Shown here in pieces: positions 2,528 to 24,175 of a stretch of 43,658 nucleotides of DNA; the stretch's first letter is position 1; every line of letters begins with the position of its first letter. A program made the position numbers and the translations under genes. The notes under the pieces were generated by a model, which was not told where the DNA came from, did no database searches, and saw nothing but the letters and a program-made list of their open reading frames with translations. Origin of the DNA: an uncultured Clostridia bacterium (GTDB lineage Bacteria > Bacillota > Clostridia > Christensenellales > Borkfalkiaceae); contig CANQUD010000015.1 in NCBI GenBank assembly GCA_947626935.1, positions 1 to 43,658 on the forward strand. The letters run 5' to 3'.

Positions 2528-4972
2528 TTATTCGTTGTAGAAGATCAACCTTCCGTCCTTCTCGTCCACGGCGACGGTGCCGCTCTTGAGCCGTCCGCGG
2601 AGCAACTCTTCCGAGAGTCCGTCCTCGACCATCTTCTGGACCATGCGCTTGAGCGGACGCGCCCCGTACTCATCGTTGTAGCCTCTGTCGACGATGAGCT
2701 GTTTCGCCGCCGCCGTCACATGCAGGCGGATACCGCTCGGCTGCAGTCTCTTTCCGACGCCCGACAAGATCTTGTCGCAGATGAGCGCGGCATCGTCCTT
2801 TGTCAGCTTGTGGAAGATGATGACGTCGTCGAGCCTGTTCAAAAACTCGGGACGGAACTGTTTTTTGAGCGCTTCTTCGATGTTTTCACGCATCTCGTCG
2901 TATTCGCTCTCCTCGTCCTGCGTGCCGAAGCCGAGGGAAGAAGTCTCCTTGACGGCATGGGCGCCGACGTTGGAAGTCAGAATGACGACCGTGTTCTTGA
3001 AATTGACCGTTCTCCCCTTGCTGTCCGTCAGGCGTCCGTCGTCGAGGATCTGAAGGAGCAGGTTGAAGATGTCGGGATGTGCCTTCTCCACCTCGTCGAA
3101 GAGGACGACGGAGTAGGGCTTCTTGCGCACCTTTCCCGTCAGGTACCCCTCTCCCTCATCGTAGCCGACGAACCCCGGGGCGGCGCCGATCAGCTTGGAG
3201 ACCGAACTCTTATCCATGTATTCGGACATGTCGATGCGGATCATGAGGTCCTCGTCGCCGAACATGACCTCGGCAAGCGCCTTGCAGAGGTCCGTCTTGC
3301 CGACGCCCGTGGGACCCACGAAGATGAAAGAGCCGATAGGACGGTTGGGGTCCTTCATGCCCGCCCTCGCCCGACGGATCGCCTTTGCGACGGCGGATAC
3401 GGCTTCGTTCTGCCCGATGATGCGGCGGTGAAGTTCTTCCTCGAGATGCAGGAGCCGTTCGCTCTCCTGTTCGGTGAGCCGCGAAACGGGCACGCCCGAC
3501 CAGCTCGAGACGATCGCGGCGATGTCCTCGGCGCCGATCGCGATGTGGGCGCGGTTGCGCTTCATCTGCCAGTCGCGGCGCATCGCATTGACCTTTGCCG
3601 TGAGTTCTTCCACTTCCGCGGCGAGCTGCCGCTCGTTCTCGTCCCCCCACTTTCTCGCCTTGTCTCTGTCCGATTTGAGACGGACAAGCCTGTCCTCCGC
3701 CTCGTGCAGTTCGGTGGGACCGTTGTAGGCGTTCAGCCGTGCGCGGGAAGCCGCCTCGTCGATGAGGTCGATCGCCTTGTCGGGCAAAAATCTGTCGGTG
3801 ATGTAGCGGTCGGACAGCCTCGCCGCCGCTTCGATGGCTTCCTCGGTGATGATGACGTTGTGATGGGCTTCGTATTTGTCGCGGACCCCCCGCAGAATGA
3901 TGATCGTGTCCTCGACGGAGGGCTGGTCGACGGTGACGGGAGTAAATCTCCGCTCGAGGGCGGGATCCTTCTCGATATAGCGGTATTCCTCGATCGTGGT
4001 CGCGCCGATGGTCTGCAGCTCTCCCCTCGCGAGCATGGGCTTGAGGATGTTGGAAGCGTCCATTGCGCCGTCCGTGGAGCCGCCCGCGCCGACGAGGGTG
4101 TGGATCTCATCGATGAAGAGGATGATGTCCTTGTCCGCCGTCACGGCGTCGATGATGGTCTTGAGCCGTTCCTCGAAGTCGCCGCGGTAGCGGGTGCCCG
4201 CCAAGAGTCCCGTTAGGTTGAGCGAAAAGACGATCTTCCCCATGAGAAGGTCGGGAACTTCGCCCTGCGCGATCGCCTGCGCAAGTCCCTCGATGACGGC
4301 GCTCTTGCCGACGCCCGGTTCGCCGATAAGGACGGGGTTGTTCTTCGTCCTTCTCGAAAGGATCTGGATGACTTTCTCGATCTCCTTTCTCCTGCCGATG
4401 ACGGGGTCGAGCTTTCCTTCCCTCGCCTTCTTCGTGAGATCGACGCCGTACGGGAGCAAACTTTCGTCCACCGTGCGGACGGGTCTTTGCCCCGCCTGTT
4501 TTCCGCTCTCGGGCGCTTCCTGCGTCTTTTCGTAGGACGAGCCGCTGATGAACGCCTCCGTCCGCTCGATGAGAAGGGGCAGATCGATGCGCATGCCCGC
4601 AAGCAGGGTGTAGGCGATGCTCTCTTCCTCGTTCAGGACGGCGAGGAGCAGATGTTCCGTCCCCGTCAGCGCCCCGAAGGTCTCATCCCTCCGCGCGTAG
4701 CTCTCCGCATTCGTGAACATATTCTTGGTGCGGGGGGTGAAGTCGAATTTCTTGGTCGCCTCGTGCGTGATGGCGCGGCGGAAGAGGTCGCGGTAGACGT
4801 TGTGGTCGACGCCCGACGCCGCAAGGAGCCTGCCCGCCGTGCTCTCGGGCACTTCGAGCATGGCGAGGATGAGATGTTCGCTGCCGATGTAATTCGTCTT
4901 GTAATACTTGGCGATCTTGTCCGCCTGCATGACGACCTGTTTCAGGTGGTCCGAATAAAATCTGCTGTTCAA
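2528..4972 (-). CDS. clpC: ClpC, AAA+ unfoldase of the ClpCP protease
   Basis: 814 residues, the normal ClpC length. Two N-terminal Clp repeats (1-145) are followed by AAA+ domain 1 with Walker A GEPGVGKS (217-224) and Walker B LFIDEIHTLVGAG. A helical middle domain comes next, then AAA+ domain 2 with GPTGVGKT and VVLFDEVEKAHP. ClpC unfolds substrates, including arginine-phosphorylated proteins marked by McsB, and feeds them to ClpP. The start codon is TTG with GAGAGG about seven bases upstream; no ATG lies at a plausible place nearby. It follows mcsB by 48 bases in the standard mcsA-mcsB-clpC order. ClpP is encoded separately at 25556-26146. Confidence 0.97.
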   Translation of the reverse strand: MNSRFYSDHLKQVVMQADKIAKYYKTNYIGSEHLILAMLEVPESTAGRLLAASGVDHNVYRDLFRRAITHEATKKFDFTPRTKNMFTNAESYARRDETFGALTGTEHLLLAVLNEEESIAYTLLAGMRIDLPLLIERTEAFISGSSYEKTQEAPESGKQAGQRPVRTVDESLLPYGVDLTKKAREGKLDPVIGRRKEIEKVIQILSRRTKNNPVLIGEPGVGKSAVIEGLAQAIAQGEVPDLLMGKIVFSLNLTGLLAGTRYRGDFEERLKTIIDAVTADKDIILFIDEIHTLVGAGGSTDGAMDASNILKPMLARGELQTIGATTIEEYRYIEKDPALERRFTPVTVDQPSVEDTIIILRGVRDKYEAHHNVIITEEAIEAAARLSDRYITDRFLPDKAIDLIDEAASRARLNAYNGPTELHEAEDRLVRLKSDRDKARKWGDENERQLAAEVEELTAKVNAMRRDWQMKRNRAHIAIGAEDIAAIVSSWSGVPVSRLTEQESERLLHLEEELHRRIIGQNEAVSAVAKAIRRARAGMKDPNRPIGSFIFVGPTGVGKTDLCKALAEVMFGDEDLMIRIDMSEYMDKSSVSKLIGAAPGFVGYDEGEGYLTGKVRKKPYSVVLFDEVEKAHPDIFNLLLQILDDGRLTDSKGRTVNFKNTVVILTSNVGAHAVKETSSLGFGTQDEESEYDEMRENIEEALKKQFRPEFLNRLDDVIIFHKLTKDDAALICDKILSGVGKRLQPSGIRLHVTAAAKQLIVDRGYNDEYGARPLKRMVQKMVEDGLSEELLRGRLKSGTVAVDEKDGRLIFYNE

Positions 4973-20329: not shown

Positions 20330-20668
20330 TCAATCCCCCAAAAATTCCACGCCCTTCAGGAGTACGTCGTTGACGATCTCCCCCGATGCCATGTAAAAGA
20401 TGATCTTTCCGTGCCGCTCGCTTTTAACAAGCCCCGCATCCTTCAAAAATCGCAGTTGATGGGAGACCGTCGTCTGGTTGATGCGGAGCACTCTCGAAAT
20501 ATCGGTGACGCACATCTCCGAAATGGCGAGCGCGGACAGGATGCGGAGCCGCGTTCCGTCCGAAAAGATGGAGAAAAAACGCACGAGGGAAGAGAGGATC
20601 TCCCCGTCGGGAACGTAATCCTCCACCATATCCTTCGTGCGTCTGTCGAGCAACAAGGTTTCCGCCAT
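20330..20668 (-). CDS. ArsR/SmtB-family regulator
   Basis: 112 residues with a winged helix-turn-helix (TDISRVLRINQTTVSHQLRFLKDAGLV, in parts: VTDISRVL, NQTTVSHQLRFL). The metal-binding helix that reads ELCVCD in arsenic sensors here reads EMCVTD, so only one cysteine (Cys53) remains, and the C-terminal DxHx...H site of zinc sensors is not seen. The ligand is therefore uncertain and may not be a metal. The ATG at 20668 has AAGGAGG eight bases upstream. A long palindrome (20706-20729) in its promoter region is the likely operator. It lies downstream of the copper operon but has its own upstream region. Confidence 0.9.
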   Translation of the reverse strand: MAETLLLDRRTKDMVEDYVPDGEILSSLVRFFSIFSDGTRLRILSALAISEMCVTDISRVLRINQTTVSHQLRFLKDAGLVKSERHGKIIFYMASGEIVNDVLLKGVEFLGD

Positions 20669-20757: not shown

Positions 20758-20970
20758 TTATAGGATCGCCTTGGGTTCGTAGCCTGCCTCTTTCACGGCG
20801 GCAAGCAGAATGTCGTCGGAGACCGCTTCGGAAAGCTCCACGACCGCCGTCTTGTTCTCGAGGCTGACGTCCGCCTTCTTGACACCCGCGACCCGTTCGA
20901 GCGCGTCCGTCACGTGCTTGGCGCAATGTACGCACATCATTCCGTCCACAAGAATTGTCTTTTTCATCAT
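20758..20970 (-). CDS. copZ: Nested start giving a free CopZ-like copper chaperone
   Basis: The last 70 residues of the copA frame are a complete HMA copper chaperone (MMKKTILVDGMMCVHCAKH, Cys ligands CVHC) of normal CopZ length. A strong AAAGGAG lies five bases before the ATG at 20970, inside the long frame. This is what an independent copZ gene would have, so the chaperone was probably a separate gene before the repeat joined it to copA. It may still be made separately as well as in the fusion. The domain is certain; its independent translation is inferred. Confidence 0.7.
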   Translation of the reverse strand: MMKKTILVDGMMCVHCAKHVTDALERVAGVKKADVSLENKTAVVELSEAVSDDILLAAVKEAGYEPKAIL

Positions 20971-23403
20971 TTTATCTCCTTTTTGATTTGTTTCGGTTTG
21001 TTGAGGGTGGACCCACTCCCCTACCCCTCTCCCATGGAGAGGGTAAGAAGCGGGGTCCTTCTCCGACGCAGAGGGAGCGCTTGAGACCGCCCGTTCGTTT
21101 TGAGACAAAGCCGAGGAACCCTCTCCAGTGGAGAACTCCTCTTTCCCCTCTCCGAGGGAGATCCCCTCTTTACCCCCTCTGGTGGAGGGGGGTAGGGGGG
21201 TGGGCGTCCTTCCCCCGAACCGCACGAGGCGCAGGGCGTTGGTCACGACGAAGAGGGAGCTTAAACTCATCGCCGCCGCCCCGATCATGGGATTCAGGCT
21301 GATGACCCAATAGAAGGCGCCCGCCGCGAGCGGAATGCCGATACAGTTGTAGAAAAATGCCCAGAAGAGGTTCTGTTTGATGATGCGCATGGTCTTTTTG
21401 GAGAGGGCGATCGCCCGCGGGAGCGCACGCAGGTCTCCGCTGACGAGCACGGCGTCCGCGCTCTCGATGGCGACGTCCGTTCCGTTCCCCATCGCAATGC
21501 CGACATCCGCCTCTTTGAGGGCGGGAGCGTCGTTGATGCCGTCCCCCACCATGGCGACATAGCGGTTTTCCCGCCGCGCCTGACGGTGTTCGCGCTTCGC
21601 CTGTTCGTTCTGCTCCCTTGCCCCCTTCACATAGCGAAGTTTCTCCTCGGGGAGAAGTTCGGCGCAGACACAGCTCTCATAGGACGGAAAGCCCGCTTCC
21701 GCGGCGATGTGCCGCGCGACCGCCTCGTTGTCCCCCGTGAGCATGACGGGAAGGCAGCCCCCCCTCACGAGCGCTTCGACGGCTTCCCTGCTTCCCTCTT
21801 TGAGGGTGTCGGCGAGGGCGAACACGCCGAGAACGGTTTTCTCGTCCGCGAGGAAGAGGACGGTCTTTCCCTCGGCGGAAAGTTTCTCGAAAATCGCAAG
21901 ATATGCTTCGAATTTCACGCTTCTGTCCTGCATCATGCGCTCGTTGCCGAGGAAGTACGTCCTGCCGTTCACCCGTCCGACGGCGCCCTGTCCCGTGATA
22001 TATTCGACGGCTTCGGCGACCTCTCCGCTTCCGCAAAAATCGGCGATACATTGCGCGAGCGGGTGACGGAGCTTGCTCTCGAGCGCGTAGGCGATCGCTT
22101 TGGCGCTCTCTTCCCCCTCAAAGTACACGACTTTTGGCTTTCCCTCGGTGAGGGTCGCCGTCTTGTCGAGCCACACTTCATGCACCGTCGCCATTTTCTG
22201 CAGGGCTTCGGCGTTTTTGTAGAGAATGCCGAGCGCCGCCCCTCTTCCCGTCGCCGCCATGACCGCGACGGGCGTCGCGAGTCCCAGAGCGCAAGGACAG
22301 GAAATGACGAGCACCGAGATCGCGTAATTCATCGCATCCGACAAATTCCACGTCGTAAAGTACCAAATGAGGAAGGTAAGGACGGCGATCCCCAGCACGG
22401 CAGGGACAAAGACCGCGGCGACCTTATCGGCAAGTTTTTGGATGGGAGCCTTGGACGTTCCCGCCTCGCGCACCATCTTGATGATGCCCATGAGCATGGT
22501 ATCCGCCCCCACTTTTTCGGCACATATCTTCAGAAAACCGCTCGTGACGATGCAGGCGGAGACCGCCTTCTCCCCCGCAGACAGCTCCACGGGCAAGCTC
22601 TCCCCCGTGACGGCGGAGCGGTCCACAAAGGCATGCCCTTCGACCACCGTCCCGTCCACGGCGATGGATTCCCCCTGTCTGACGATGACGAGGTCGCCCT
22701 CTTCCGCCTCGGAGAGAGGGACCGTCATCTGTATGCCGCCCCGTTCCACCGTCACCGTATCGGGTGCGAGGAAGCGGAGCTTTTCGATCTCCCGTCCCGT
22801 GCGCTTTTTGGACCTGTCCTCGAGCCACTTACCGAGACAGACGAGGGTGACGATCATCGCCGCCGATTCAAAGTAGAGCGCATGGGTCGCGGGGTCGAAA
22901 CAGGCGAGCACGATGCTGTACACGAAGGACACGCCCGCGCCTAAAGAGACGAGGGTGTCCATGTTCGGCACGAGCTTCACCGCCGCCCGCACGCCGCTGA
23001 CGAAAAATTTGTAGTTGACGAGCAGGATGAGGGCGGTCAGACCGAGTTGGAAGCCGTGGTTCCACCATCCCATCGGCGCGGGAAGATGCACCATGTGCCC
23101 CATCGAAAGGTACATGACGGGAAGGAGCAGGACGAGGGAGACAAGGAAACGGACGAAGAGGGTCAGAATTTCCCTCTTTTTTTCGGGCGTCTTACCGTAT
23201 TCGAAGATGCCGTACCCCAGCCCGACGACGGCGGAGAAGATCTCCTTCTCGTCCAAGATGCCCCCGTCAAAGTCGACGTCCATGCACTCACCCATCAGGG
23301 AAACAGCGCAAAATCGCACCCCATTCAGCTTTTTTACCGTACGTTCGATGCCCGCCGCACATGCCGCGCAGCTCATGCCCGTCACGGAATATCTCTTCTT
23401 CAT
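20758..23403 (-). CDS. copA: Copper-exporting P1B-type ATPase CopA fused to a C-terminal CopZ-like domain
   Basis: 881 residues. An N-terminal HMA domain has the Cu site GMSCAAC (Cys12, Cys15). Membrane helices follow, with CPC in VISCPCALG, actuator TGES, HP in RHPLA, TGDN and GDGINDAP: a copper exporter. The phosphorylation motif reads DKTATLT instead of DKTGTLT (Asp413). After about residue 730 (TNALRLVRFG) the frame runs through roughly 82 residues encoded by repeat DNA, then a second HMA domain with MMCVHC. Ordinary CopA proteins end near residue 730. The ATG at 23403 overlaps csoR (ATGA) with AGAGG upstream. Confidence 0.92.
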   Translation of the reverse strand: MKKRYSVTGMSCAACAAGIERTVKKLNGVRFCAVSLMGECMDVDFDGGILDEKEIFSAVVGLGYGIFEYGKTPEKKREILTLFVRFLVSLVLLLPVMYLSMGHMVHLPAPMGWWNHGFQLGLTALILLVNYKFFVSGVRAAVKLVPNMDTLVSLGAGVSFVYSIVLACFDPATHALYFESAAMIVTLVCLGKWLEDRSKKRTGREIEKLRFLAPDTVTVERGGIQMTVPLSEAEEGDLVIVRQGESIAVDGTVVEGHAFVDRSAVTGESLPVELSAGEKAVSACIVTSGFLKICAEKVGADTMLMGIIKMVREAGTSKAPIQKLADKVAAVFVPAVLGIAVLTFLIWYFTTWNLSDAMNYAISVLVISCPCALGLATPVAVMAATGRGAALGILYKNAEALQKMATVHEVWLDKTATLTEGKPKVVYFEGEESAKAIAYALESKLRHPLAQCIADFCGSGEVAEAVEYITGQGAVGRVNGRTYFLGNERMMQDRSVKFEAYLAIFEKLSAEGKTVLFLADEKTVLGVFALADTLKEGSREAVEALVRGGCLPVMLTGDNEAVARHIAAEAGFPSYESCVCAELLPEEKLRYVKGAREQNEQAKREHRQARRENRYVAMVGDGINDAPALKEADVGIAMGNGTDVAIESADAVLVSGDLRALPRAIALSKKTMRIIKQNLFWAFFYNCIGIPLAAGAFYWVISLNPMIGAAAMSLSSLFVVTNALRLVRFGGRTPTPLPPSTRGGKEGISLGEGKEEFSTGEGSSALSQNERAVSSAPSASEKDPASYPLHGRGVGEWVHPQQTETNQKGDKMMKKTILVDGMMCVHCAKHVTDALERVAGVKKADVSLENKTAVVELSEAVSDDILLAAVKEAGYEPKAIL
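20995..21222. repeat. Repeat DNA inside the copA frame
   Basis: Several hairpins of the window's G/C-tract repeat family are packed here, among them CCCTCTCC-CAT-GGAGAGGG (21025-21043), CTCTCCAGTGGAGA near 21121, and a CCCCCT/AGGGGG stretch at 21172-21200. The part at 21008-21047 matches, in reverse complement, the copy at 24131-24173. It encodes a low-complexity linker of the CopA-CopZ fusion. Confidence 0.8.
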
Positions 23404-23702
23404 GAAAACCTCTTGAACAGATCGACGATCTCGTCGAGGACGTCCGTGTCCCCTTCCCGCACATGCTCCGCGACGCATCCATGCAGATGATTTTTGAGAA
23501 TGAGAGCGGAGAGGCTCTTGACGGAAGCGTCCACCGCGGCGAGCTGAATGAGAATGTCGTCGCAGTAGCGGTCCTCATCCACCATGCGTTTGATGCCGTT
23601 CATCTGTCCCATGATGCGATTGAGACGGGACCGAATGCTCTTTTTGTCCTCTTCCGACCGTACGGTCTTGCGTTCGCTTGTGTCACGGCAACAATGTTCC
23701 AT
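23400..23702 (-). CDS. csoR: CsoR-family copper-sensing repressor
   Basis: 100 residues, helical. The Cu(I) ligands of CsoR proteins are in place: Cys47 (RYCDD), His72 and Cys76 (NHLHGC). An additional Cys-Cys pair lies at residues 4-5. It represses the copper operon until Cu(I) binds. The ATG at 23702 has GGAG about seven bases upstream; a longer frame runs back through the operator and promoter and cannot be real. The stop overlaps the copA start (ATGA). The operator at 23714-23730 is of the classical CsoR type. Confidence 0.95.
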   Translation of the reverse strand: MEHCCRDTSERKTVRSEEDKKSIRSRLNRIMGQMNGIKRMVDEDRYCDDILIQLAAVDASVKSLSALILKNHLHGCVAEHVREGDTDVLDEIVDLFKRFS

Positions 23703-23739: not shown

Positions 23740-23768
23740 AGTATATCATATGCAGGGTGTCCTGTCAA
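23740..23768 (-). promoter_or_regulatory. Sigma-A promoter of csoR-copA
   Basis: On the minus strand TTGACA (23768-23763), 17-bp spacer and TATACT (23745-23740). The operator covers about +3 to +20. Confidence 0.88.
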
Positions 23769-23849: not shown

Positions 23850-24175
23850 ACCCCCTCAGTCTCGCTCCTCTCGACAGCTCCCCCTCAAGGGGGAGCCAAG
23901 GGATTCTTGCCCACCCCTTGAGGGGTGGGTGTCACGAAGTGACGGAAGGGGTGTTATGCTGGCATACCCGCCGCTCATTCTGAGCCGTAGGCGAAGAATC
24001 CCGGCAAACGGGCGGAGCGACATTGTTCTCCATAGGTTTAACGGGATGCATCGCTACGCTCTGCATGAACGGCTGCGGTGACCCACCCCCTGTCGCGTTG
24101 CGACATCCCCCTCCCACGGAGGGGGTTCAAATCTACCCCTCTCCATGGGAGAGGGGTAGGGGTGTGGGTCACAAC
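23850..24175. repeat. Repeat cluster between csoR and clpX
   Basis: Consecutive hairpin modules: CTCCCCCTCAAGGGGGAG (about 23877-23895), CCCACCCC/GGGGTGGG (23910-23929), GTCAC-GAA-GTGAC (23931-23943) followed by GGAAGGGGTGT, and a 12-bp stem CTACCCCTCTCC/GGAGAGGGGTAG (24133-24159). Between them is CATTCTGAGCCGTAGGCGAA, resembling a short repeat common in gut Clostridia. Plus-strand frames here are repeat-derived; no gene is supported. Confidence 0.8.

Follow-up and report, generated by a model that had tools for sequence, protein, structure and literature searches.

A copper-pump gene that runs on, through a stretch of repeat DNA, into a second metal-binding domain raises the question of whether it makes one protein or two, and whether it was the repeat that joined the two parts. 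Here, this question was examined at the csoR-copA locus of a DNA stretch of 43,658 nucleotides (the window), by comparison with copA loci of the same genus, family and class. The reading that we prefer, and to which we give a probability of roughly 0.8 on comparative grounds, is that copA would be a conserved one-gene, two-protein arrangement working by internal initiation, and that repeats later entered the linker of a gene already fused.

Layout of the locus and identity of its domains

The features of the locus are collected in Table 1. On the minus strand, positions 20758-23403 form a single open frame of 881 amino acids, in which CopA is followed by a linker and a CopZ-like HMA domain. 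The frame starts at the copA ATG (23401-23403), ends at the stop codon at 20758-20760 and has no stop codon after the NALRL motif. The sequence-only reading of this DNA had described such a frame with a linker of about 82 residues, and this was borne out with 85 residues counted up to the first ATG. It had also assigned to the HMA domain its own AAAGGAG and an ATG at 20970; both are present, together with a second ATG at 20967, which lies 8 nt after GGAG and is the conserved one. The copA ATG overlaps the stop codon of csoR (ATGA), the start of csoR at 23702 being our choice of ATG. On account of this overlap and of the promoter-like site upstream of csoR, one transcript for csoR-copA(copZ) is likely; two promoter-like sites were found in the region against 1.1 expected, so that the site is weak evidence taken alone. 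Directly after copA-copZ, a gene for an ArsR/SmtB-type metalloregulator was observed (window 20330-20668, minus strand), and the DNA after the unfused copA of one genus locus, L050, encodes by eye a similar start to this gene.

Table 1. Positions of the features of the csoR-copA locus in the window
Feature	Position	Strand	Basis
Promoter-like TTGACA-17-TATACT, possible csoR-copA-copZ promoter	23740..23768	-	Upstream of csoR; 11/12 consensus matches
csoR-like gene for a metal-sensing repressor	23400..23702	-	PF02583, 95.7 bits (cutoff 22.8) on 23403-23696
Core of CopA (HMA domain at the N terminus, copper P1B-type ATPase, NALRL at the end)	21226..23403	-	TIGR01511, PF00122, PF00403
In-frame linker, 85 residues up to the first ATG, largely repeat-derived	20971..21225	-	Repeat matches, translation
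Repeat-derived linker stretch, G-rich hairpin units	21139..21215	-	e.g. C27:23785-23851, 84%, linker bases 12-77
Repeat-derived linker stretch	21010..21075	-	Core 21010-21050 up to 100% identical elsewhere in the genome
AAAGGAG, Shine-Dalgarno-like, within the fused frame	20976..20982	-	Duplex energy -9.3
Two in-frame ATGs (20970, 20967)	20965..20970	-	20967 is the position conserved among relatives
C-terminal HMA domain, CopZ-like, 69 residues and stop if begun at 20967	20758..20967	-	PF00403
Inverted copy of the linker repeat, upstream of csoR	24132..24170	+	Inverted pair I2 with the 21010..21075 stretch

The CopA part passed both curated models to which it was compared (TIGR01511, 534.5 with a cutoff of 397; TIGR01525, 560.4 with a cutoff of 346.25). 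The P-type signature DKTGT, a position normally near-invariant among P-type ATPases, was not matched letter for letter; the window CopA has DKTAT, in which the Asp, the Lys and both Thr are kept. The motif DKTATLTEGKP was observed in the frame at 20761-23403 (minus strand), where the P-type signature would read DKTGT. All 55 unique loci of the set L001-L060 share DKTAT, as do 27 of the 91 loci outside it, and a search of the open-licence literature for 'DKTAT' together with 'P-type ATPase' found no paper. The window protein is placed among the P1B ATPases as a predicted pump through the curated models, with its DKTAT variant noted.

The C-terminal HMA domain scored 60.3 bits against PF00403 (Pfam cutoff 24.8) and has the GMxCxxC motif, here GMMCVHC. 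The 69-residue product alone remained below all NCBIfam CopZ cutoffs, with scores of 68.5 (cutoff 85), 58.3 (95) and 53.1 (91), and hence it is named CopZ-like and not CopZ. The N- and C-terminal HMA domains are 31% identical over 64 positions; therefore, the second is no fresh copy of the first.

Spread of the fused frame and conservation of the inner start

The fused frame is widespread beyond the genus. With a fused protein of 811 residues as query, the family search gave a match at E<=1e-150 in 84 of 101 genomes and in 14 of 18 genera, and among the 85 family matches listed, 67 extend to residue 799 or beyond. When the genus, the family and the titled contigs are taken together, 136 of 146 unique loci are fused, a count biased to fused genes in its titled part, as these contigs were picked for their resemblance to the entire fused protein (they include a few records titled outside Clostridia, e.g. 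Eggerthellaceae L155 and Saezia L159). A fairer fusion count than that of the titled contigs comes from 59 loci sampled across the class, with two from each of three families and one from each other family, which were drawn from matches listed in score order (163 of 196 genomes matched). In this sample 31 loci are fused, 18 have a separate downstream copZ-like gene, 9 have none and 1 reaches a contig end; the script gave 29, 18, 11 and 1, and L185 and L204 were reassigned from none to fused after their tails were read by hand.

A tree of the C-terminal ATPase pieces of 87 rows has one large group in which most rows are separate and another in which most are fused. At least six changes between the fused and the separate state are needed on it, a number that rises to 14 when rows lacking a chaperone are scored as not fused. 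Separate copA-copZ pairs are found on this tree at L103, L139 and L160, in addition to the 18 of the class sample. The fusion is deep and, the tree being unrooted, gain and loss are indistinguishable in it. At L146, the CopA was seen to carry two C-terminal HMA domains in tandem, and a Met closely precedes the last one only.

The start inside the fused frame is conserved. An in-frame ATG stands before the C-terminal HMA domain in 132 of the 136 fused loci, 4-16 codons (usually 8) before GMxCxxC; one of the four loci without it, L061, has GTG with a strong Shine-Dalgarno (SD) site. The energy of the anti-SD duplex was -6 or lower at 131 of these 132 inner ATGs, whereas 544 of the 3235 remaining in-frame ATGs in these genes reached this value; the comparison has a slight bias to strong sites, as the best ATG within 13 codons was taken per locus. 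In 80 of the 132 genes no other ATG scored as well as the inner site. In the other 52 some other internal ATG scored equal or better, and therefore an SD-like site alone proves nothing. Shared ancestry of the rows causes p-values to be overstated, and counts from thinned and class-wide sets are more trustworthy. After thinning at 70% identity, 39 of 41 representatives have the ATG, 38 with an energy of -6 or lower and 33 with -8 or lower. In the class sample, a Met lies 6-12 residues before GMxCxxC in 29 of 31 fused loci; L183 has GTG and L219 has no start, and among the 29 fused loci found by the motif, 27 have an ATG with a duplex energy of -7.9 or lower.

The nucleotides before the inner ATG were also compared. 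Gly codons just before it are GGA in 67 of 80 cases against 1623 of 8778 in the core (Fisher p 5e-36, the rows not being independent). Of 131 sites, 63 have the SD core in codon register 0, 64 have it in register 2 and 4 in register 1; with two main registers in use, it is the nucleotides that are kept, and conserved residues do not explain the SD. The local 45-nt fold had a median of -1.7 kcal/mol at 131 inner sites against -10.7 kcal/mol at 3205 other ATGs, and the A-rich, weakly folded DNA around the inner start could partly be a property of the linker. For a control, 20 CopA loci from other genomes of the phylum were searched for a second N-terminal HMA domain. It was recognised by motif in 13, the 7 loci with a single N-terminal HMA domain were dropped from the count, and an in-frame ATG was found in 1 of the 13; the first locus set, tried as a source for this control, contained no inner N-terminal HMA domain (n=0).

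These data bear on an alternative that we consider unlikely, in which the fused protein is the sole product and the inner SD and ATG are leftovers from a separate copZ. In favour of this alternative, terminal HMA domains tethered to copper pumps have precedents, two being described in AfCopA (PMC11970713), and the synonymous-recoding test is weak; when each upstream stretch was recoded, 10 of 132 reached p<=0.05, and the inner site does not stand out in this test because the encoded lysine, glycine and glutamate by themselves call for a string like the SD. Leftovers should decay, yet both ATG and SD are kept in 38 of the 41 thinned loci, and 27 of 29 class loci keep the ATG at the low energies given above, within linkers that are highly divergent and have little else conserved in them. 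Furthermore, the codon choice and the register point to selection at the level of nucleotides. The start, the SD-like site and the codon choice lend strong comparative support to the earlier proposal that one transcript yields the chaperone in both tethered and free form; the size of the free product in that proposal has to be changed. On the preferred reading of two products from one gene, the free protein would most likely have 69 residues rather than 70, because the conserved ATG of the relatives corresponds to 20967.

Repeat DNA in the linker

The proposal that the linker comes from repeat hairpins agrees with our results. With a threshold of E<=0.001, the linker DNA (221 bases) has at least 48 matches in the genome of the window, itself included, a number that may be an undercount as it was obtained from 40 of 126 candidate stretches scored. 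Most of these matches fall on linker bases 166-206 (window 21010-21050) and fewer on 21139-21215, and a 27-nt tandem unit is present in 2.6 copies at 21118-21187. Folded as DNA, the linker region gave a z-score of -3.65 against shuffles, none of 200 being as good. The repeat ends at 21010, which is 27 nt before the SD, and thus leaves the inner start intact. Within the linker, a stem resembling a terminator (21141-21113) was at shuffle level (4 found, 4.5 expected) and was given no weight. Other dispersed inverted repeat pairs with 93-94% complementarity were seen in the window at 8842-9052/42258-42365 and 9238-9268/23906-23936. When 20 stretches carrying 25 other copies from the window genome (G000) were checked, 18 of the 25 copies lay within some stop-to-stop frame of at least 90 aa, and a Pfam scan of six of the longer frames among these gave no match, so that a second repeat-bearing gene did not emerge from this check.

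In the genus, 61 genomes were searched and one copA locus was taken from each of 50, the window's own included. In 45 of the 50 loci the CopA frame continues through a C-terminal HMA domain like that of the window. In the remaining five (L010, L019, L041, L044 and L050) CopA stops, and neither a fusion nor a downstream HMA domain or copZ was detected, so that the domain is dispensable in some. The fused frame is therefore common to other genomes, which makes it highly improbable that a sequencing or assembly error joined the frames in the window genome alone, even in a draft genome of 55 contigs with repeats that are hard to assemble.

Linkers of the fused genus loci were compared with six repeat stretches as queries. 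In 32 of the 45 loci the linker is short (11-26 residues), and none of these 32 matches the repeats. The other 13 have linkers longer than 26 residues; 8 of them have a repeat match, and all eight repeat-bearing linkers are in frame. With these six queries a match was absent from five of the 13 (L003, L011, L012, L013 and L018), so long linkers are not always made of repeats. The proteins of L007 and L009 are 95.1% identical and their linkers have 22 and 37 residues, respectively; a repeat unit is found in the linker of L009 and not in that of L007, and it is 93% identical over 45 nt to the L005 unit. Units of these repeats are scattered through the genomes that carry them. For the linker of L002, 52 matches were obtained in its own genome, G044 (itself included), and the G031 linker is matched by one of its units. 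For the linker of L005, the matches number 15 in its own genome (G041), 28 in G024 and 5 in G060, numbers which count the linker itself where it was matched, and the linkers of G024 and G060 are among these matches.

Repeats are thus found inside genes that are fused, and they entered the already fused gene several times; 45 of 50 loci are fused, 32 of them have short linkers free of repeats and the near-identical pair L007/L009 fits repeat entry into a fused gene. On the same evidence we give almost no credence to the proposal that, in the window lineage, two genes were fused by a repeat landing on the stop codon of copA, although the window linker is repeat DNA and separate copA-copZ pairs exist elsewhere in the class (18 of 59). 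The sequence-only reading, from which this proposal came, had named the same linker without repeats in all related genomes as one result that would speak against it, and the outcome is close to that, with the fused frame present there without the repeat. On the reading of later entry, repeat DNA at this locus only lengthened the joint of a fused layout that is old and common.

In three relatives (L004, L047 and L048) an extra in-frame stretch of roughly 15-30 residues was observed between DKTATLTEGKP and HPLA, in the ATP-binding part. That of L048 is the same kind of dispersed repeat, with 47 matches in its own genome G052, itself included; the window genome has no repeat stretch at this place. 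In-frame repeat copies were therefore seen at two places of a single gene, the linker and this one.

Proposed two products from one gene and comparison with known systems

According to the reading that we prefer, copA and a copZ-like gene would have been joined in one frame long before the repeats arrived, and the joint would have kept the ribosome-binding site and the start codon of the second part. A single csoR-copA(copZ) mRNA may then be read in two ways. Initiation at copA would give the 881-residue pump with one HMA domain at each end, and initiation at the inner AAAGGAG-ATG would give the free 69-residue chaperone, which may deliver copper to the pump, the tethered HMA domain presumably binding copper as well. 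Provided that copA is translated, the open frame yields the tethered product; the free product is suggested by the comparison of relatives. Relief of CsoR by copper is established for the CsoR family and would apply here as well; translation of the mRNA would begin both at copA and at the inner site. Dispersed hairpin repeats would later have entered a tolerant linker, changing its length and keeping the frame and the inner start, and other repeat families would have entered the linkers of several relatives.

Among the known systems, E. coli copA/CopA(Z) is reportedly a case of programmed ribosomal frameshifting, as described by Meydan 2017 and Drees 2017. The E. coli chaperone is the N-terminal part of CopA, ended early by frameshifting, whereas the separable domain of the window protein is C-terminal, lies in frame and would be freed by an inner start. 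In the CopA of Archaeoglobus fulgidus, a further system compared here, we know of no inner start. The likeness to E. coli is that one copper-pump gene is described as yielding both the pump and a free HMA chaperone, in that case by frameshifting (PMC10187127, PMC9548414). The A. fulgidus CopA is described with 'two MBDs' (PMC11970713) and its C-terminal domain is named in a reference title (PMC7558416), so that it resembles the window protein as a pump with more than one metal-binding domain; unlike in the window, CopZ of A. fulgidus is presented as a separate protein (PMC11970713, PMC7558416).

Internal in-frame initiation is described for Cas8/Cas11 and Cas10/Cas11, in which the C-terminal part is made separately (PMC11899642). 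These genes resemble the window copA in having one frame for two proteins and an inner start late in the gene, and the conserved in-frame start with a ribosome-binding site that marks the Cas11 type is found here. The proteins differ, and when the inner start of Cas11 was mutated the small product is reported to have vanished (PMC11899642). For the repeats, a parallel by description is given by the Rickettsia palindromic elements (RPE), which are dispersed palindromic repeats lying in frame inside protein genes (PMC10969869). The linker repeats are likewise both dispersed in the genome and in frame within a protein gene; RPEs are described from many unrelated genes, whereas in-frame copies of the window type were seen in one gene. 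A description of an inner copZ start in copA was not found among the titles and abstract beginnings listed from the open-licence literature.

Overall, it seems probable that in many families of Clostridia copA is a nested gene for a pump with a tethered C-terminal chaperone and for the free chaperone, which would have evolved separately from the frameshifting of E. coli, and that hairpin repeats go on colonising this gene within a single species cluster, in frame and both in the linker and in the ATP-binding part. Usual gene calling gives one long pump protein at such loci, and a free chaperone from inside it would be missed. The locus is also a clean case of repeat DNA repeatedly entering a gene with the frame unbroken. 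If the inner start is used, there would be two unrelated ways, the frameshift of E. coli and inner initiation, to obtain a pump and a chaperone from one gene, and the contribution of tethering would be directly testable.
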